A stretch of DNA of 41,021 nt from Cytophagaceae bacterium (GTDB taxonomy: Bacteria > Bacteroidota > Bacteroidia > Cytophagales > Flexibacteraceae): assembly GCA_027485575.1 (NCBI GenBank), contig JAIXQU010000140.1:1-41021 (forward strand). The letters are read 5' to 3'. How positions within the stretch are numbered: position 1 is the stretch's first letter; every line of letters starts with the position of its first letter. This document shows positions 1 through 26,391 of the stretch, piece after piece. A program made the translations under genes and the position numbers. The notes beneath the pieces are model-generated. The model saw nothing but the letters and a program-made list of their open reading frames with translations, did not search any database and was not told the DNA's origin.

Positions 1-78
1 ATTCCGAACAGAGTAGTTAAGCCCGGTAACGCCAATGGTACTGCCCTAACCGGTGGGAGAGTAGGTAGCCGCCAGATC
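1..78 (+). rRNA. rrf: 5S ribosomal RNA, 3' part (cut by window start)
   Basis: The first ~78 bases match the 3' two-thirds of a bacterial 5S rRNA: the CCGAACAG loop segment, the AGTTAAGCCCGG helix strand, and the GGTGGGAGAGTAGGT segment followed by the closing strand. The 5' part lies outside the window. It is followed within 10 bases by a strong terminator, so this is the end of a ribosomal RNA operon transcribed rightwards. The exact 3' end (about 76-78) is estimated from the family and not seen directly. Confidence 0.93.
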
Positions 79-87
79 ATTATAATT

Positions 88-119
88 AAAGCCCCCTCAT
101 TTGTGTCGGGGCTTTTTTT
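88..119 (+). terminator. rrn operon terminator
   Basis: A hairpin with arms AAAGCCCC (88-95) and GGGGCTTT (108-115), followed by a T run, lies just after the 5S rRNA. It is a textbook intrinsic terminator. Its T run directly abuts the copied NFACT gene tail that begins at 119. Confidence 0.9.
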
Positions 120-195
120 ATGCCTTTGGTGTAACCAATATTGTATTTTCCTTTTCAACCTTCACCTGACCGGGCAGCATGTTTTTTCCTTTTCG
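119..195 (-). pseudogene. Detached 3' tail of the NFACT/RqcH gene (direct repeat of 2422-2498)
   Basis: These 77 bases match 2422-2498 in the same orientation at 75 of 77 positions by hand alignment. Read on the minus strand they encode the last 25 residues of the NFACT protein, ending in LVTPKA and a stop (TAA here, TAG in the intact gene). One mismatch changes Ile to Asn; the other is silent. Homology stops abruptly at 195/2498. There is no upstream coding sequence, so this is a gene fragment and not a gene. It sits immediately after the rrn terminator, with the 509-codon membrane gene between it and the intact NFACT gene. Confidence 0.88.
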
Positions 196-377
196 ATCAA
201 TTTGCTGTCTTAAAACCTGATGTGTTTTTCCAACTCAATGGTTTTTTAATTGTATACATCTAGTATTGACTGTATGGCCATCGAAAGCCAGTTTTATAGC
301 GTGAAATTTGTAGATAAACAGCTTTGCGATGGGGAAAAAGGCTTGTTCTGCTTATTTCATATTTATAAGAGTTTGGT
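196..377. other. Intergenic stretch before the membrane glycosyltransferase gene
   Basis: This is AT-rich DNA between the copied NFACT tail and the gene at 378. I see no ORF, no strong hairpin and no good -33/-7 promoter pair. The promoter of the downstream gene is presumably here but cannot be pointed to. Confidence 0.5.
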
Positions 378-1907
378 ATGATAGAAAGGGTAGTTTCGCA
401 CTACTTATTATTTTCATTTATGGTTTTTACTGAAAAAGGCTATTCCAGAATATTTTTAGTTGGGTTTTGCCTTGTTTTATTAGGATTCTTTTGTACCCTT
501 TGGAATCGTTATATCTATATCGATGATGCCTGGTTTGGGGAGCAGGCTTTTTGGTTTTCTAAGTATGGGATTCCAAGAACAGAATCGTTGGTTGGTTATT
601 TCGGATGGGATAGTCATCTTTTGGTTTACCACCGATTGAATATAATTTTTGGTGCTTTATTGATAAAGCTATTTGGTTGGTCGGTTGCGACACTTAGGGT
701 CCCCACACTTTTGATTCTTGCTGGATTTTTTTTTGTATTATTTCGATATTTTAAGGCGAATGAATCAACATTTGGAAAAAAGGCTTTTTTCATTTGGGTT
801 CCTTTTATATTTGCAAATCCACTTGTTATTTTTTTGTCTTTTACCTATCGCCCAGAAATATTACTCATGTTTTTGGGTTTTCTTTCCTGGTGGATGGTTG
901 AAAAATCCGTCAAAACCAAAGATTCGAATTTTCTTCAGCCTTTTCTTGGTGGGGCCTTTGCCGGACTTGCCTTTTTCACTCACTTGAATGGCTTAATTTT
1001 TTCAGTTGCCGGATTTTGTCTTTTAATTTTTAATAGAAGGTTTAAAAATACCCTTGCTTTTACATTTTCTGCCTTTTTATTTTCCTCCCTTTTCTTTTAT
1101 GATTTATGGCAAGAAGGTGCTATGGAAACCTTCCTTTTCCAAATGAGAAACTGGCCTGACCCGGTAGGGGCAAGTTATAGCAGCCTCGGTATTTTGGGTT
1201 GGTTGCAAAAAGCCGTTATTAAATTGTTGGACGAGCAACAAAGGTTTTTTTGGAGTTACAAGGTTTGGGTTGTTTCTATTTTATATATCCTTTCATTGAT
1301 TCTATTTTTTAAGAGCCTTTGGGCTCAAAATAGAAATTTACTTGTATACCTTTTTATTTTGAATTTAACTCTTAATGTTTTGGGAAGTCAGATTGCAGAA
1401 CGATTTCTTATTTATTTACTTCCCTATATGGCAATGGTGGTTGGCCTGGCCTTTAGGATGGCAAAAGAAAAGTTTAGAAAACCAATTGTTTGGTTATTTA
1501 GGGGGTTAGCCACTGTGCAATTTTTATTTTGTTGGATTATGGTGGTTTGGTTGATTCAAAAAAGTGGTGATTTTGTGGGGTTGCACACCAGAATTTTAGA
1601 TCAAATTCCTGAAAAGGAGAAACCCATTTTAGTGGATTATCCATTGGTTTTTAATGGTTTGGAGACCCATAGGTTGGTTACTTTTAAGTTATTCGAATAT
1701 CTGGAGGTTACTGAGAAAATGAAGTTTGACCTTCACAGTTTTACCAGAAAGGCCCATGACCTAAATATCCAATTTATGGTGTTGCCTCTTAAGGAAGAAA
1801 ATATTGAAAACTCAAATTATTCTATTCTTTTTAAGGATGTTGTAGATTATCCTTTTTATGAAAAATATTTAGAATCTGAAGGATATCTGGTGTTAAAGCA
1901 TAAATAG
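378..1907 (+). CDS. Integral membrane glycosyltransferase-like protein (GT-C fold, ArnT/PMT-like)
   Basis: This 509-residue protein is almost wholly hydrophobic, with roughly ten predicted membrane segments. After the first segment comes a loop with YIDDAWFGEQ (Asp49, Asp50, Glu55), then a YHRLN...LFGWSVATLRVP stretch. That pattern is the N-terminal signature of GT-C enzymes such as ArnT and protein O-mannosyltransferases, which move sugars from polyprenyl-phosphate donors on the outer face of the inner membrane. A soluble tail of about 110 residues follows. The acceptor and sugar cannot be told. The ATG at 378 is used; an in-frame ATG at 420 is a possible alternative. The gene stands alone, facing the NFACT gene, and lies between the two copies of the NFACT tail, so it may be part of an inserted segment. 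Confidence 0.72.
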   Translation: MIERVVSHYLLFSFMVFTEKGYSRIFLVGFCLVLLGFFCTLWNRYIYIDDAWFGEQAFWFSKYGIPRTESLVGYFGWDSHLLVYHRLNIIFGALLIKLFGWSVATLRVPTLLILAGFFFVLFRYFKANESTFGKKAFFIWVPFIFANPLVIFLSFTYRPEILLMFLGFLSWWMVEKSVKTKDSNFLQPFLGGAFAGLAFFTHLNGLIFSVAGFCLLIFNRRFKNTLAFTFSAFLFSSLFFYDLWQEGAMETFLFQMRNWPDPVGASYSSLGILGWLQKAVIKLLDEQQRFFWSYKVWVVSILYILSLILFFKSLWAQNRNLLVYLFILNLTLNVLGSQIAERFLIYLLPYMAMVVGLAFRMAKEKFRKPIVWLFRGLATVQFLFCWIMVVWLIQKSGDFVGLHTRILDQIPEKEKPILVDYPLVFNGLETHRLVTFKLFEYLEVTEKMKFDLHSFTRKAHDLNIQFMVLPLKEENIENSNYSILFKDVVDYPFYEKYLESEGYLVLKHK

Positions 1908-2420
1908 TATTAAATCAGATATTTCTGGACTTATCTTAAGTTCAGATAACAAATGAACCTGTTTTTACTTTTTTGGCACCATGCTATTATATTCTTACTT
2001 GCTTATACGGTAAGGAGATGAAAATTTCGACAGGTTTTATTATATGGTATTTTGCATCGAATATTGCTTTTATTGAGTTGAAATGGAAGGTGAATGTGGT
2101 AGGAGATGGACGGCCAGGGAGGCAGTCGACGGAAAGAGAAAAGGACTTTGCAGAGGCACTTACTTCTTTAGTCCTTAAACCCTGAATTACTATTGGGAAA
2201 TTCCTGTCGGTCAAAAGGCAGGTATTTCGGGTCTAAACTGCTTGAAATCAGATTCTTCGCACCTTTTTTTCGGTATCCGTAGCGCTATTACGAATTTCGA
2301 ATAAAAGGGATTGATTTTTTGCAAGTTTGCCTAGGACAGTTTTGCTGTCGTGATTAACCTTCTATAACGAAGACCTAACGACAAATTCGGGTTAAAAGAA
2401 ATAGTTACTTGAATCTTGTC
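1908..2420. other. Gene-poor interval with a GC-rich, foldable segment
   Basis: I accept no protein gene in these ~510 bases; the two overlapping short ORFs (1973-2185 plus, 1987-2214 minus) resemble no family and lack gene-like context. A locally GC-rich patch spans about 2098-2160. Next to it is a perfect 7-bp inverted repeat, AAGGACT (2141-2147) and AGTCCTT (2170-2176), which could form a hairpin. No T run follows, so it does not look like a simple terminator. It may be an extragenic element or a small RNA; function unknown. Confidence 0.4.
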
Positions 2421-3953
2421 CTATGCCTTTGGTGTAACCAATATTGTAATTTCCTTTTCAACCTTCACCTGACCGGGCAGCATATTTTTTCCTTTTCGCA
2501 CATATTTTCGCTCGGTAACCATTACCGGACTTAAAGCATTTGTCTTTGCTTTCGAATAAAATGCCGCCAATTCTCCTGCCCTTTCAATTACTGGTTTTGG
2601 AACCTTTGTCCCATTTTTATTTCTTATGATGACATGGCTTCCGGCAACATCTCTGGCATGCAGCCAAAGGTCATTTTTATGGGCATGCCTTAGCATTTCA
2701 TCATTTGATTTTGCATTTTTTCCTACCCAAATATCATAGCCTGAAAAGAACTGAATATGATAAGGCAAGTTTGTTTCCTCAAAATTATTTGAAACCGAGT
2801 TGGCTATAAATGGCTTAAGACCGGCCCAATTTTGCACAAGACCGAGCTTTTCAAGTGAATCCAGATGGGTAGTGTATTGTTCTTGCCAGGAAGCCCTTCT
2901 TTTTGTTAGTTCTTCTAGTTTCAGATAGTGACCTTTTGATTTTCTATAAAAACGCTCAGCATTTTCAATCATTCCCAATTCTGGCTTAAGCTTAATTTCT
3001 ATTGGTTTATTGTCTAAGAATCTGGGATAAACAACTGAATTTGAACCAAATGGAATGTTTTGGCCATATGCCATAAGTAAATCTGCATATTCCTGGTATT
3101 TTGAATTAGACTCTTCTCCAGACAATTGCTTCTTACAATTCTCGATTTGTGTTTTAATGTAAAATAGCTTTTGGTTTAGAAGGGAAATTAGTTGGGTCTT
3201 CTTTTTGTTGAACTGATTAAATTGCCAATAGTACTTTGAAAACTGATTTGAGATTTCAATAGGATCATAACTTTCAAAAAGGATTTCTTCTTTTTGAAAA
3301 AATGTGAGGATTACTTCTTTTTCATCCTGGCATAAATACATTTTTCCTGATTGAAGGGCAAAAAGAAATCCTTTGAGTACAACTTGTTTTTGTTCTAAAG
3401 ATAATCCCTCAGTTAGTTTTACCCATTCTTCCCATATTTTGGGAGTTATGATTCCTGATTGTGTATTAAAGGAACTTATGGTTAAACTTTCAATTGTGGT
3501 TGAATCATTAGAGTTTTCGGGAATGTCTGAAATTGATTGAAAGTCTTTCTTTAGATTCTTGTTAAAAATTTCTAGAACAGAAGAATCCTTGAATAATATG
3601 ATATTGGATTTTACCCCATGTAGCTTTATAAACAGTGAAAGTTGATTTTTTAACTCAATATAAAAACTTCTGTCCTCAGGCGTTTGCCTTACCGAGATTA
3701 CGTTTTCTCCTATTATATCTTTGAAAAGGTCTACTGAATTTTGGTTCGTCCTTGAAAATTCTTTTGGAAACGAAAATAGATTTCTTCCCTGGTGTAAATC
3801 AATTCTTAAGTTGAAACAAGTGTTTTCTTTGGTGTAAAAAACAAAAACCAATTCGTCTTTTTCCTGAGAAAAACATTCAATAATCTTTGAATCCTTAAGT
3901 AAATCATTCAGTCGATTTGAAAGCCGGGAAATAAAAAAATAGGTTTGGTACAT
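2421..3953 (-). CDS. rqcH: NFACT-family ribosome quality control protein (RqcH/Rqc2-like)
   Basis: This 510-residue protein has the NFACT layout: an N-terminal NFACT-N/FbpA region (about 1-180), a helical, probably coiled-coil middle (about 230-400), and a C-terminal NFACT-R domain (about 405-500) with the hallmark DLWLHARDVAGSHVIIR. The Asp-Arg pair characteristic of RqcH NFACT-N is present as PEDRSFYIEL (Asp94-Arg95), followed by GVKSNIIL. Known RqcH proteins bind stalled 50S-peptidyl-tRNA complexes and recruit tRNA-Ala to add C-terminal alanine tails; that activity here is inferred from the family. The protein is somewhat shorter than Firmicutes RqcH (~570 residues). The ATG at 3953 gives the expected N-terminus. 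The 3' end is duplicated at 119-195. It lies 48 bp downstream of the frameshifted sensor-like gene. Confidence 0.88.
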   Translation of the reverse strand: MYQTYFFISRLSNRLNDLLKDSKIIECFSQEKDELVFVFYTKENTCFNLRIDLHQGRNLFSFPKEFSRTNQNSVDLFKDIIGENVISVRQTPEDRSFYIELKNQLSLFIKLHGVKSNIILFKDSSVLEIFNKNLKKDFQSISDIPENSNDSTTIESLTISSFNTQSGIITPKIWEEWVKLTEGLSLEQKQVVLKGFLFALQSGKMYLCQDEKEVILTFFQKEEILFESYDPIEISNQFSKYYWQFNQFNKKKTQLISLLNQKLFYIKTQIENCKKQLSGEESNSKYQEYADLLMAYGQNIPFGSNSVVYPRFLDNKPIEIKLKPELGMIENAERFYRKSKGHYLKLEELTKRRASWQEQYTTHLDSLEKLGLVQNWAGLKPFIANSVSNNFEETNLPYHIQFFSGYDIWVGKNAKSNDEMLRHAHKNDLWLHARDVAGSHVIIRNKNGTKVPKPVIERAGELAAFYSKAKTNALSPVMVTERKYVRKGKNMLPGQVKVEKEITILVTPKA

Positions 3954-4001: not shown

Positions 4002-5631
4002 TTATTTTTTTACAGAACTGATATTTCGGATTGCAAGATCAAAATCTTCTGTTGATAAACTTGATTTATTTCTCACTTTCGTTTTGTATGTATAAATCGT
4101 ATTAACAGAATATCCCAAAGCCTTTGCTATAGTCTCGTTATTGTGAATCCCCATTCTCATTAGTGCAAAAATTCGTAGTTCCGTGTTTAAACTATCGGTA
4201 ACCTCAAACTTAAAATCATCATCCAAGTCAATAATTTTATTAATTTCATTTATGAAATCTGGAAATATTTTAAGAAATGCCAGGTCAAAATCGTGAAGCA
4301 ATTTTTTCTTTTCATGGTTAGGTTTAATAACCGATAGTTGGAACTTTATCTCAGAAATGTCTTTGCTGGCAATGCTTTTTTCAAGGTCATTAAAGAGTTT
4401 TTCTAATTTGTTTATTAGCCTGGTGTTGGTTTGAAAAAAATGACCTACATATTCTTCCTTTATTATTTGCGCCTCTTCTAGTTCATTTTTCTTTCTTTCC
4501 AGTTCATGATTATATTGTTCTAATCGCTCTTCATTTTTTTTGATTTTTAATTATTGTGGTCCTTATCAGCCAAATACAACCCAATAGAAATAGAACCAGC
4601 AATGCGAGTAGAATTATTAGGTTATCTCTTTTTTCCTTAATTAATCCAAGTTGTTGTGCTTTTATAAGGGGTAACACTTCCAATACCTGAATTTTACGTT
4701 GTTTTGAACCAAAAAAATTGGCATCCTCCAATGCCAGATTGATATAGAAGTTTGACCTATCGAGATCTCCAATTTCGAAAAGATGATAAGCCAATCGAAT
4801 AAGCGAAGTGTACTCCTTAACCAATAAAATTTCATCAGATATTGCTGAGATGGTGAAGTATTCTATACTCTTCCTATTGTCCTTTAATTTTTCATAAATG
4901 TAACCCAGGCAGGCAGCTTCCATTGCAAGTTGCCTTTTAGGCAAATCGCTTCTGACAATTAACTTTTCATAAATCGTCCTTGCCTTATCAAGTTTGGATT
5001 CCTTTAGAGCCTTGTATCCTGAATAGGATTGAAATTCTATTGATTCTGGAGAAGAAATTTTTATTGCGGAATCCAGATATCGATTTCCTAATTCATTAAA
5101 TTCAATTGAGAATGCTTTCTCAGAATTGAAATTTGCCAATTCATAGTAGCCTTTGGAAAGGGTGAATAAATATCTTGCGCTCAATGAGTTATCACAACTA
5201 TCCAGAGAAACATTTTTTAAAGAATCGATACCTTGATTTATAATCCCAGCTGAAAGGAGAATGTAGGCATGTAGTGTCGCGGCCTCAGCGACCTGAGTTT
5301 TAACTTTGTTTTTTTTTGCTTCTCTAAGCAGCAAAACTGAATACTTGGATGCTGAGTCAAATGAGAAGGATTTGTATTCTTCGCAAATTGATTTTAAGGT
5401 AGTAAAGTTTTCAAGGCTACTTGCCGAAGGATTGTAATAGGATAATAAAGAATCAATTCTCCTTTTTTTCGCTTTTTCCCGAATCGGTCTTTTTAGAATT
5501 TCTTCGTCAAGCAGGAGAAGACTGTCGTTTTTTGAGTTGGAACAAGAAAATAAACATCCAATCAATAGTCCCGAAAATAAGAACTTAAAACATGTCCAAA
5601 ATCGAATATATTTAGTTCTATTGCCCACCAC
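4002..5631 (-). pseudogene. DUF6377-type TPR/membrane/HTH sensor-like regulator, split by a frameshift
   Basis: Two ORFs in different frames together make one protein of ~543 residues. The first (5631-4531, 366 aa) has a lipoprotein-like signal with lipobox LFSC (Cys30), a TPR-like helical region (about 60-330) and a membrane segment (about 341-362). The second frame continues past its stop: a cytoplasmic coiled coil, then EEYVGHFFQTNTRLINKLEK, then a LuxR-like helix-turn-helix (NNETIAKALGYSVNTIYTYK) to 4002. This order matches the Bacteroidota DUF6377 family, putative one-component membrane regulators. The switch falls at an A8 run on the coding strand (4541-4534); one extra A restores the frame. 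It may be a true pseudogene, a sequencing error, or a slippage-expressed gene. The target is unknown. It lies between mreD and the NFACT gene. Confidence 0.8.
4534..4541 (-). other. A8 homopolymer at the frameshift point
   Basis: On the coding (minus) strand the sequence reads CAAAAAAAATGAAG, with TGA ending the 366-codon frame. Inserting a single A gives AAT GAA GAG CGA..., which stays open through the coiled coil and HTH to 4002. Runs of this length are both common sites of indel error and known sites of polymerase slippage, so the cause cannot be decided from one sequence. Confidence 0.8.
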
Positions 5632-23152: not shown

Positions 23153-24568
23153 ATGACAAGTATTTCTGAAGTTTTCCTTATCAAATCCCCTGAAAATCAA
23201 AAAGTAAACCTTTGGCTTTTCGATACCCCGGGAAATTGGAACCAAGAAGCCCTTGGAAATTTTCCAGCATGGCTTAAACCATCAAAGCCAGAGACAACAC
23301 AGGTTTCTTTGTTTGGTAATAAGGACAAACAAAATGTAGTTGTTTTTTTACAGGGTCAAGCAGCTGAATCTTGTCGAAAAGCAGGTGCAGAAGCTTATAA
23401 CTTGTTGAAAAAGTTACAGTTAACCGATGCAAAAATCTGGTCAAATGTAGCAAATACTGCTTCAGTTCTTGCTTTTGCTGAAGGTTTGGTTTTGGCTTCT
23501 TATCGATTCGACAAGTACAAATCTGAAAAAGAAAAGGGCCTGAAAAAGGTTGAAATATTCCATCCTGAGATTGACAAGAAGGAAGTTAAGAACCTCAATA
23601 TCATTTGCCAGGCAGTCAACCTGACAAGAAATCTGGTTAATGAACCCGCAAGCCACCTTACTGCCAAAAAGCTTTCCGAAGTTTTTGAAAAAACTGGAAA
23701 AGATTCCGGTTTCGAAGTAGAAGTTTTGGGTAAAAATAAAATCCAAAGCCTGAAAATGGGTGGATTGTTGGGTGTTAACCAAGGTTCAGATCTGCCGCCA
23801 ACCTTCAATATTTTTGAATACAAAGGCAAACACGCCAAAAATAATAAGCCCATTGTTCTTATTGGTAAAGGAGTGGTGTATGATACTGGGGGCCATAGTC
23901 TTAAGACCAGTTCCGGCATGGAAGCCATGAAATGTGACATGGCAGGTTCGGCTACAGTTTTGGGTATTTTTAAAGCTGTTGCCGAATTGGAATTACCAAT
24001 TCATTTGATTGGTTTGGTTCCGGCAACTGATAACCGGATTTCTGCCAAAGCTTTGTCGCCTGGCGATGTTATTACCATGTCAGATGGAACAACCGTTGAA
24101 GTTTTAAACACCGATGCCGAAGGGCGATTGATTTTGGCCGATGCCTTGGTTTTTGCCCAAAAATATGAGCCGGAACTTGTCCTGGATTTCGCCACATTAA
24201 CTGGCGCAGCCGCCAGAGCCATTGGAAAAGATGGTTTTGTATTCATGGGAACGGCTTCTAAAGAAACCATTGAAGCCATTCATGATGCGGGTAAAACCGT
24301 ATATGAGCGTGGTGTAGAATTTCCGCTTTGGGATGAATACAAGGACTATATCAAATCGGATGTGGCTGATATCAAGAATATTGGCGGTGCAGAAGCAGGC
24401 GCAATAACTGCCGGGAAATTCCTGCAACATTTTACCAATTATCCATGGTTGCACTTTGACATTGCCGGTACAGCCTTTTTTGATGGAGCCGGAGTTGGGT
24501 ATATTCCAAAAGGAGGAACGGGTAATTCAGTCAGGTTGATTGTGGAGTTTTTGAAAAGGTTGAAGTAA
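23153..24568 (+). CDS. pepA: M17 leucyl aminopeptidase
   Basis: This 471-residue enzyme has the M17 catalytic core: GKGVVYDTGGHSLKTSSGME (Lys and Asp metal and active-site residues), KCDMAGSATVLG, and NTDAEGRLILADAL. It removes N-terminal residues, preferring Leu, with two metal ions, as a cytosolic hexamer. The N-terminal alpha/beta domain (about 1-150) is poorly conserved as usual. The 3' tail (about 24451-24568) has a decayed paralogous copy at 26249-26391 beyond the next gene. Confidence 0.95.
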   Translation: MTSISEVFLIKSPENQKVNLWLFDTPGNWNQEALGNFPAWLKPSKPETTQVSLFGNKDKQNVVVFLQGQAAESCRKAGAEAYNLLKKLQLTDAKIWSNVANTASVLAFAEGLVLASYRFDKYKSEKEKGLKKVEIFHPEIDKKEVKNLNIICQAVNLTRNLVNEPASHLTAKKLSEVFEKTGKDSGFEVEVLGKNKIQSLKMGGLLGVNQGSDLPPTFNIFEYKGKHAKNNKPIVLIGKGVVYDTGGHSLKTSSGMEAMKCDMAGSATVLGIFKAVAELELPIHLIGLVPATDNRISAKALSPGDVITMSDGTTVEVLNTDAEGRLILADALVFAQKYEPELVLDFATLTGAAARAIGKDGFVFMGTASKETIEAIHDAGKTVYERGVEFPLWDEYKDYIKSDVADIKNIGGAEAGAITAGKFLQHFTNYPWLHFDIAGTAFFDGAGVGYIPKGGTGNSVRLIVEFLKRLK

Positions 24569-24644: not shown

Positions 24645-26129
24645 ATGAAATACATCTTTAACATTTTCCTGCTCTCTTTTTGGATTTTATCATATTCAGT
24701 TCATGCGGAGAATTGGCATCCCTTTCCTTTTAAAGTTTCCTATTATGGTGTTAAAACTTCGCTTGGCGCAATTGCTGAACAAAGCTCGCCTCTGCCTTAC
24801 ATTCCTGGAAACGGACCGATAACCAAAGGATTTGTTGTAGATGCTTTGTATCTGGACGAGGCTTTTGCTCAAAATAACCTTACTGGTCGAAGGCGTTCTC
24901 TAAAATACCCTGTCAGCCAGTTGAGTGAAATTGGTAATGGTTCTGATTTTAAACCATTTATTAAATCATCTACTGTAACCACATCTGCAGATAGTCAGAC
25001 AGTAATTGCGTCTATTGCCACCTACATTACAATTTCTGAAACTTACTTTCCTAAAAACATCAAATTAGGCAAAACCGCGATCGGTAACTCTGGAATAGTT
25101 ACAGATCTCTCAGTCAGGAGTTTATGGGGAATACAAGATTCAATCGCCACGATTACCATGGGATCGAACACGCTGTTATGGAGTAAAAAATTTGGAGTTA
25201 TTCAATCATATGTTGCCTGGGTAAACAATGGATTATCCAGATTGGAATTGGTTGGGATTAAAGATATTTCCCTTGGTTATCAAGACAATACAATGGTCTT
25301 ACAAAAACCAGAACCAGGAGATGAATTTCATTTCCTGAACCTTTCAAAAGGAAATCTTTTTTGTCCAGGCACTTTTGGCACCCCAAGCACAACGTTTTCT
25401 GATAATACATTTAACAAGATGCAGGTCAAAGTTCTTTCTTCTGAACAAGAAGGTGCTACAGTTAAAATAGTAATGTCCAATCTAAATGACACCACCGGAA
25501 TAGAATATACCAAATTCATTGAATACTACAGTAATACGGGTGTCAGAATTGCATTATCTGGTTTAGAAGATTCTTTGCATCCGGTCGGAACAGCTCCTTT
25601 CGTTTTTTCGGGTGGTCAATTTATCGGAGAGTTGAGTTTTCTTGGTTGGGCTGATTCTCTAGGCAACCAAATGAAAATTATGTATGTTTCAGCGGTTGAT
25701 TTGCCTACTGTTGTTCAGTTTTTCACTTGTTCAAAAATGCCCTTTGCTGCTTTAAAAGGAGGACCCGATAATTTGTTTTCATTTTGCATAGGAGCATTTA
25801 CAAATTTTCAATATCCCGTTTACGGAAAAATCGGGGGTCGTTGCGTTTTTGGGACTCCTTTCGATTCTGTCCTAATTACCAATACCTTACCTGAATTTGT
25901 TAAATCAAATGACTTCAGAATTATACCGAATCCTGTGGAATCAGCCTTTCAAATTTCGGGTATTTTAGATGGCGAATATGCAATTTCAGATGCCTTGGGA
26001 AAAGTTCGAATCCAAGGAATTATCTCTGATAGTCCAATTGGAGTCAGTAGTTTGCCATCTGGAATGTATTTTGTTCGAATCACTCAGGATGGAAAAATTT
26101 CGGGCTGCAGAAAGCTGTTTAAAAAGTAG
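24645..26129 (+). CDS. Secreted T9SS-sorted protein of unknown function
   Basis: This 494-residue protein starts with a signal peptide (KYIFNIFLLSFWILSYSVHA, cleavage near Ala21). Residues about 22-410 are beta-rich, with no domain I can name. The last ~75 residues look like a type A T9SS sorting domain: FRIIPNPVESAFQISGI, then SSLPSGMYFVRITQDG and a basic end (RKLFKK). It should cross the outer membrane through T9SS. The gene lies between the intact aminopeptidase tail and a degraded copy of such a tail. After the stop a TAGGTA/TACCTA inverted repeat (26127-26144) occurs without a T run. Confidence 0.82.
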   Translation: MKYIFNIFLLSFWILSYSVHAENWHPFPFKVSYYGVKTSLGAIAEQSSPLPYIPGNGPITKGFVVDALYLDEAFAQNNLTGRRRSLKYPVSQLSEIGNGSDFKPFIKSSTVTTSADSQTVIASIATYITISETYFPKNIKLGKTAIGNSGIVTDLSVRSLWGIQDSIATITMGSNTLLWSKKFGVIQSYVAWVNNGLSRLELVGIKDISLGYQDNTMVLQKPEPGDEFHFLNLSKGNLFCPGTFGTPSTTFSDNTFNKMQVKVLSSEQEGATVKIVMSNLNDTTGIEYTKFIEYYSNTGVRIALSGLEDSLHPVGTAPFVFSGGQFIGELSFLGWADSLGNQMKIMYVSAVDLPTVVQFFTCSKMPFAALKGGPDNLFSFCIGAFTNFQYPVYGKIGGRCVFGTPFDSVLITNTLPEFVKSNDFRIIPNPVESAFQISGILDGEYAISDALGKVRIQGIISDSPIGVSSLPSGMYFVRITQDGKISGCRKLFKK

Positions 26130-26248: not shown

Positions 26249-26391
26249 GCAACACTTTATCCAATTATCCCTGACTCCACTTTGACATGGCAGGTCCATA
26301 CTTTTTTGATGGAGCTGGGGTTGGTTATATTCCAAAAGGAGAAACCCGAAATGCAGTTAGGTGGATTGGGGAGTTTTTGAAAGGGAAAATA
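26249..26391 (+). pseudogene. Degraded 3' tail of a second leucyl aminopeptidase gene
   Basis: From 26278 the sequence reads in frame HFDMAGPYFFDGAGVGYIPK and on to EFLKGK, matching the C-terminus of the aminopeptidase at 23153-24568 (HFDIAGTAFFDGAGVGYIPK ... EFLKRLK). By hand, 93 of 117 bases agree with 24451-24567. Homology continues weakly upstream to about 26249 but with small indels that break the frame, and no catalytic core is present. It is a relic, older than the NFACT tail copy judging by divergence. The frame runs on past the normal stop. Confidence 0.85.

Follow-up and report, generated by a model that had tools for sequence, protein, structure and literature searches.

The stretch of DNA analysed here (the window; 41,021 nucleotides) is the entire contig JAIXQU010000140.1, numbered C65, of the 198-contig draft genome of a Cytophagaceae bacterium (GCA_027485575.1), and it starts inside a 5S rRNA gene. 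Close to this end of the contig, the last codons of an NFACT gene occur twice, on either side of a gene for a membrane glycosyltransferase, probably of the GT-C type. The features of the locus, which lies beside the end of a ribosomal RNA operon (rrn), are as follows.

1–77, plus strand: 3' part of the 5S rRNA gene, cut by the contig end (RF00001, 37.3 bits against a gathering score of 38, E 2.8e-5, model positions 37–120)
88–119, plus strand: rrn terminator-like hairpin (88–115) with a T-run to 119 (fold -14.2 kcal/mol, z -4.0)
119–195, minus strand: left copy of the NFACT tail, 25 codons and stop TAA, read as the displaced old tail (75/77 bases against 2422–2498)
226–396, minus strand: decayed ISL3-type transposase fragment (tblastn, and DNA alignment to an open reading frame (ORF) on contig C34)
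378–1907, plus strand: membrane glycosyltransferase gene, probably GT-C, 509 amino acids, the cargo (ORF; a homologue in genome G005 matches PMT_2)
2175–2396, no strand assigned: miniature inverted-repeat transposable element (MITE; 2180–2391) between two copies of TTAAA (at least 39 other matches in the genome; 30-copy alignment)
2422–2498, minus strand: right copy of the NFACT tail, within the intact gene, stop TAG (repeat search, ORF, alignment)
2421–3953, minus strand: NFACT (RqcH-like) gene, 510 amino acids, ORF intact (Pfam NFACT_N 1e-21, NFACT-R_1 2e-14)

A direct-repeat search of the window reported the pairing of 112–195 with 2415–2498, the core of which is formed by two 77-bp copies in the same orientation and at a distance of 2303 bp. 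They run leftward, toward rrn, and correspond to the final 25 codons and the stop of NFACT. They differ at positions 146 and 181, and the longest exact run between them is 34 bp. The boundary of the repeat falls within the stop codon, which in the left copy is completed by the T-run of the terminator. Similarity ceases sharply on either side of both copies: comparison of the insert ends with the continuing flanks was no better than for shuffled sequences (41/300 and 297/300 shuffles were equally good). A sequence-only reading had already described this duplication, its abrupt ends and the abutment of the left copy on the T-run, and our analysis agrees with it on each of these points. A whole-genome search with the 77-mer, a check that the same reading had proposed, returned only the two known copies (E 2e-34 and 1e-31; the next match is 22 bases long, E 0.08), which excludes a chance origin of the pair. 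The idea that the tail is a fixed part of every rrn flank finds no support in this search; the assembly holds one 5S end only. The tail is also absent from the 2.2-kb locus of the one other 5S found in the genus, in G001. In that locus (contig C75, 1021–1508 of the stretch read) a 108-bp unit, which contains a terminator-like stretch and a few bases resembling the 5S end, is repeated 4.5 times in tandem after the 5S, with copies 92% alike.

The two copies encode a single amino acid difference. The left copy has Asn and the right copy Ile, whereas all four sampled genomes of the same genus (G001–G004) have Lys; the codons involved (AAA/AAG, AAT, and ATT) are single base steps apart. At this one site, nothing suggests that the left copy is a decayed duplicate. 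Just beyond its stop codon, the rrn hairpin also folds stably on the minus strand (-14.7 kcal/mol, z -3.4), while the current 3' flank of NFACT folds no better than shuffles (z 0.15). A simple terminator scan did not list the 88–119 hairpin, whose loop exceeds the limit of that scan. Because Asn is one step from Lys and the left copy is followed by a stable hairpin that the right copy lacks, the left copy is read as the old NFACT tail.

The 2226 bp between the copies (196–2421) contain the transposase fragment, the GT-C gene, and the MITE. The transposase fragment matches residues 94–132 of the C34 protein, an ISL3-type transposase (DDE_Tnp_ISL3, 1.5e-49), with 44% identity over 39 residues at 280–396 and a stop codon inside (tblastn, E 4e-6 against 2.5 kb). 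At the DNA level the match is 77% at 281–363, with a local alignment spanning 226–363. The 509-amino acid protein of the window has no Pfam or NCBIfam match of its own; the GT-C label given to it by the sequence-only reading is probable, because its homologue in G005, a genome of the same family, passes the PMT_2 cut-off (1.1e-8). Its gene is rare: it had no match in any of the four same-genus genomes (E 1e-5), and matches in 3 of the 58 other genomes of one sample (E 1e-5) and in 2 of the 394 others of a class-wide sample (E 1e-20). The GT-C and NFACT genes are the only ORFs above 100 amino acids in 1–3953, consistent with the earlier statement that no integrase is present, a statement that had nonetheless overlooked the transposase fragment and the MITE.

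The MITE is short, has inverted ends and a target duplication, and belongs to a family of many copies, whose size is a lower bound (40 matches scored of 72 candidates, the window's own copy included). Thirty copies were aligned, with the right end of one of them misplaced; at the best register scanned, 12 of the 30 have an exact direct duplication of 5 bp. The family has a long form (about 212 bp here) and a shorter one, with ends CCC(A/G)GA...TC(T/C)GGG and A/T-rich duplications of 5 bp; among the best 40 of the 72 candidates, none besides the window's own lies on this contig. We rejected the MITE as the cause of the 77-bp duplication, as its own target duplication is 5 bp and no part of the element extends beyond the insert. 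In content, the insert looks like ordinary chromosomal DNA rather than a compact element or a purpose-built circle. A decayed transposase piece beside repeats that are 97% identical suggests in turn that the insert was old DNA when the repeat formed.

A repeat scan of the whole window revealed a second direct pair, missed by the sequence-only reading, in which the tail of a leucyl aminopeptidase-family gene is duplicated.

23153–24568, plus strand: leucyl aminopeptidase-family gene (NCBIfam leucyl aminopeptidase 1e-122, 410 bits against a cut-off of 432)
24424–24559, plus strand: functional copy of the aminopeptidase tail (repeat scan, alignment)
24645–26129, plus strand: gene for a 494-amino acid protein with a type IX secretion sorting tail, the cargo (Por_Secre_tail 3.7e-7)
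26249–26385, plus strand: relic of the aminopeptidase tail (83% over 137 bp; frameshifted, 25 differences)

Here the gene for the secreted protein is the single gene between the tail copies, and a YchF-type GTPase gene (from 26482; YchF-GTPase_C 2e-40) follows the relic. Among the best 40 of 50 candidates, the relic is the only other match to the tail in the genome at E 0.01, and DNA comparison upstream of the relic found no further part of the aminopeptidase gene. The similarity again terminates at the stop codon, as is the case for both duplications in the window (2/2). The 25 differences between the copies fall preferentially at third codon positions (15/49, compared with 10/94 at positions 1 and 2; Fisher p 0.0035). 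In addition, the relic has Pro where the gene has Thr, and Pro occurs in two of the three same-genus relatives that have the region. As the differences are mostly at third positions and the Pro is common to relatives, the copies appear to differ in the manner of two diverged coding alleles, with later decay added. The second case is the older-looking of the two. Order of the aminopeptidase and YchF genes was not seen to be conserved: 27 relative loci (of 28 searched, the window's own excluded) had no YchF match in the fetched flanks of at most 1.5 kb, some loci, among them those of G001 and G004, being cut by contig ends. An empty site for the second case was likewise not seen in these loci. 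A search of the two cargo proteins for defence genes (PADLOC) gave no match.

NFACT itself has matches in 47 of 58 other sampled genomes, the closest four (G001–G004) being 39–50% identical. No second NFACT tail was found in the 8–13 kb stretches read from these four, each of which has an ORF convergent with NFACT whose end is 6 or 14 bp away from the stop codon of NFACT. This ORF encodes a family-2 glycosyltransferase in G001, a WG-repeat protein in G004 (the end of the ORF being common to G003, 97%), and in G002 a protein of 571 amino acids that by eye is a membrane protein, has no Pfam hit, and ends at the 14-bp distance. The family-2 glycosyltransferase gene adjoins NFACT on its 3' side in G001 and on its 5' side in G002, where it was recognised by its matching start. 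The 3' side of NFACT has thus undergone repeated rearrangement within the genus, and these relatives do not reveal the state that immediately preceded the present event. A conserved rrn–NFACT neighbourhood was likewise not seen: of 29 relative loci, 20 were examined, and none of these 20 has a 5S in the 1.5 kb next to NFACT or in the shorter part that precedes a contig end. Draft genomes, however, often come without rRNA (5S above the cut-off in one of five genomes of the genus).

The reading that fits these observations best, with a probability of about 0.52, is an insertion by homologous single crossover in the NFACT tail. The recipient NFACT gene would have ended directly at the rrn terminator. 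A chromosomal piece from a close relative, carrying an NFACT tail, the MITE or its empty site, the GT-C gene, and the old transposase fragment, would have entered the cell and recombined by homology within the tail, while its other end would have become attached, independently of homology, at a point 77 bp into the gene. In the simplest form of this reading, the fragment would have been trimmed, circularised, and then integrated by a single crossover. NFACT would thereby have remained whole with the incoming tail, leaving the old tail 2.3 kb downstream beside the rrn terminator. A repeat that starts in a gene and stops at its stop codon would result from homology of the two DNAs being limited to the coding tail. 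Because both duplications in the window end at a stop codon, recombination anchored in the tail is favoured over an integrase or a staggered cut. Target duplications of usual transposition measure a few to some 14 bp, and the 77-bp duplication is far too long to be one of these.

Products of this kind are described for Escherichia coli (PMC3240628). There, 56 of 60 Lac- clones obtained with a fragment homologous at one end gave a PCR product for partial duplication of the homologous segment, and the 14 clones sequenced had duplications of 109–950 bp. The explanation proposed in that report is a circular molecule lacking part of the segment, followed by a single crossover. As is proposed for the NFACT locus, foreign DNA lies at a homologous segment and is flanked by a partial direct duplication; the E. 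coli products, as described there, come from laboratory conjugation with selection, whereas here the locus is natural, the duplication 77 bp, and the donor only inferred. The earlier proposal of an insertion at the NFACT 3' end through a circle is thus partly supported, as the best-fitting account and one with an experimental precedent, although the insert resembles ordinary chromosomal DNA. A linear variant, homology-facilitated illegitimate recombination (HFIR), fits less well, because its usual outcome according to the same report is a deletion, and a duplication without deletion is seen here.

Several observations weigh against an insertion in the NFACT tail. The best match in this genome to the family-2 glycosyltransferase of G001 (69%) lies on another contig, C123, with no NFACT relic within 1.5 kb, so that other rearrangements must be assumed as well. 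No relative was found with the empty site or with an rrn–NFACT neighbourhood (20 loci for 5S; the four same-genus stretches). On the minus strand, the NFACT side, the rrn hairpin has no clean T-run. The Asn/Lys argument concerns one site, which is variable among more distant relatives, and G003 and G004 are hardly independent there, being 97% alike at the neighbouring ORF. In codon usage the GT-C gene resembles the rest of the genome (96th percentile among 769 ORFs), although its GC content is low (6th percentile), as is that of NFACT (4th percentile). Composition does not mark the GT-C gene as foreign; DNA from a close relative need not stand out. Host-like codon usage makes a test for foreign composition unusable in this case. 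The repeat with its ends, the content of the insert, and the second case are directly shown. As no sampled relative is close enough to display the empty site, we infer the order of events (insert new or rrn new), along with the donor and the form of the fragment.

The strongest rival, which we consider unlikely, reverses that order. The GT-C gene would be an old neighbour of NFACT and the rrn operon the newcomer beside the old transposase fragment, the 77-bp tail having been copied as filler by template switching during break repair. The old and resident look of the insert, with its decayed transposase, MITE, and host-like codon usage, agrees with this, as do the start of the left copy where the rrn terminator ends, the differing NFACT 3' neighbours among the same-genus genomes, and the 571-amino acid putative membrane protein whose ORF ends 14 bp from the NFACT stop in G002. 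The filler would, however, have had to begin at the stop codon by chance and in the orientation that sets the tail against the hairpin, and the left copy does not resemble a decayed version of the right one (one site). A newcomer rrn also leaves the aminopeptidase case unexplained, there being no rrn there. Somewhat less probable still is an insertion with a long target duplication, arising through a staggered break. Insertions of the same anatomy are described by Nobusato et al. 2000 and serve as the example in PMC1643837, but a random staggered break would not favour a stop codon, at which two of two duplications end, and the second pair differs like coding alleles whereas target duplications begin identical.

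An integrase-driven or cis-mobilised element that has lost its integrase, with the 77-bp copies as its attachment sites, is quite improbable. Many integrative elements do insert at the 3' end of a gene and restore its tail. Such an element would however have to be reconciled with the lack of any ORF above 100 amino acids in 1–3953 besides GT-C and NFACT, the degenerate DNA inside the insert, the absence of any further copy of the 77-mer in the genome, and the similar duplication of a different gene's tail some 22 kb away. An assembly artefact is the least probable of the explanations considered. The window does begin within the 5S, where the contig is cut, and 118 bases separate this edge from the left copy, in an assembly of 198 contigs. 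The copies are nevertheless distinct at two bases, and their longest exact run, 34 bp, falls short of the final k-mer lengths common among assemblers. The flanks on both sides of the left copy also have no full match elsewhere.

Phenomena comparable to the NFACT case are already known: insertion with long target duplication, displaced 3' ends, and excisable loci flanked by repeats. The first of these (Nobusato et al. 2000, through citations in PMC1643837 and PMC3031569) likewise places a gene between long direct duplications in natural genomes, and long direct repeats surround the enclosed gene in both cases here (77 bp at 75/77; 137 bp at 83%). As cited, those insertions were found by comparison of two strains and often involve restriction-modification genes, whereas our sampled genomes are distant (NFACT 39–50% identical) and the cargo is a probable glycosyltransferase and a secreted protein, neither with a PADLOC match. 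Termination of the repeat at the stop codon also sets the present cases apart from those of Nobusato et al. as cited; we do not claim this boundary as new, no literature search having been directed at it specifically. At the wzy locus of Salmonella Typhimurium, a deletable stretch of 2558 bp with a polysaccharide gene lies between 113-bp direct repeats (PMC12074656), similar to the NFACT locus in size and layout. Its repeats are described as identical and intergenic, and the same work demonstrates excision, a circular form, and restoration in co-culture; the NFACT locus is known from its sequence alone. In Vibrio type VI secretion system (T6SS) clusters, for which HFIR was proposed as the mechanism, an incoming module takes over and the old 3' end is shifted downstream, as proposed here for NFACT (PMC5361080). 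The genes in that account are effectors and immunity genes, while here two housekeeping-type genes keep their full length. Duplications made by transformation, as reported in PMC3784515, measure about 100–900 kb.

If an insertion in the NFACT tail is correct, the window offers two natural examples, of different age within 41 kb, of the addition of a single gene beside core genes, with no mobile element and with the host gene unbroken. Recombination between the two 77-bp copies should now be able to delete the 2303-bp unit and leave NFACT intact, so that the NFACT case predicts the loss of exactly 2303 bp; with a glycosyltransferase as cargo, reversible loss would be biologically meaningful. 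By analogy, the tails of housekeeping genes might serve this lineage as general landing and exit pads, where pieces of one or a few genes enter via the last codons and leave via recombination between tails. The receiving gene would stay whole, and the GT-C gene would be switched on and off at the level of the population, like the wzy locus of Salmonella, for which this was shown. We regard this extension as speculative and improbable.

The frequency of gene-tail relics was determined in 1.18 Mb of this genome by scanning 872 gene tails, 674 heads, and 674 middles for matches within 8 kb. Same-frame matches inside an ORF of at least 100 amino acids (paralogues) and matches more than 8 kb away were excluded before counting. 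At E <= 1e-11, a cut-off chosen after the list was seen and just missed by a middle in G014 (7.6e-11), relics were found for 2/872 tails, 1/674 heads, and 0/674 middles, and both tails are those of the window. Six control genomes (0.80 Mb; 639 tails, 469 heads, and 469 middles) gave none at this cut-off, and the tail counts (2/872 against 0/639) do not differ significantly. With the limit relaxed to E <= 1e-3, the list additionally contains tails on C67, C125, G009, G049, and G014, heads on C125 and G014, and middles on C134 (two rows, one gene) and G014. With only two of 872 tails at the strict cut-off, the habit is rare, and a common habit of gene-tail duplication in this genome is not supported. 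That both cases fall within the window could be chance.

Two DNA-level pairs of similar layout, on C99 and C149, were left uncounted, their genes being unclear. On C149 (49310–50661), direct repeats of ~110 bp (75%) flank a PIN-domain gene (PIN_3, 2e-19) and a small ORF; by eye, these repeats resemble the coding tail of a secreted protein and have a second repeated block beside them. On C99 (27820–30213), direct repeats of ~120 bp (75%) surround a stretch that, by eye, contains a gene resembling an insertion sequence (IS) transposase and having inverted ends. On C122 (8180–8420 of the stretch read), a direct repeat of the opening 30 codons of a gene lies immediately before that gene (77% identity). 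In the window itself, a DUF6377 gene (4002–5631) is divided in two by a frameshift of one base within eight consecutive T (4534–4541), attributable to decay, phase variation, or a sequencing error.

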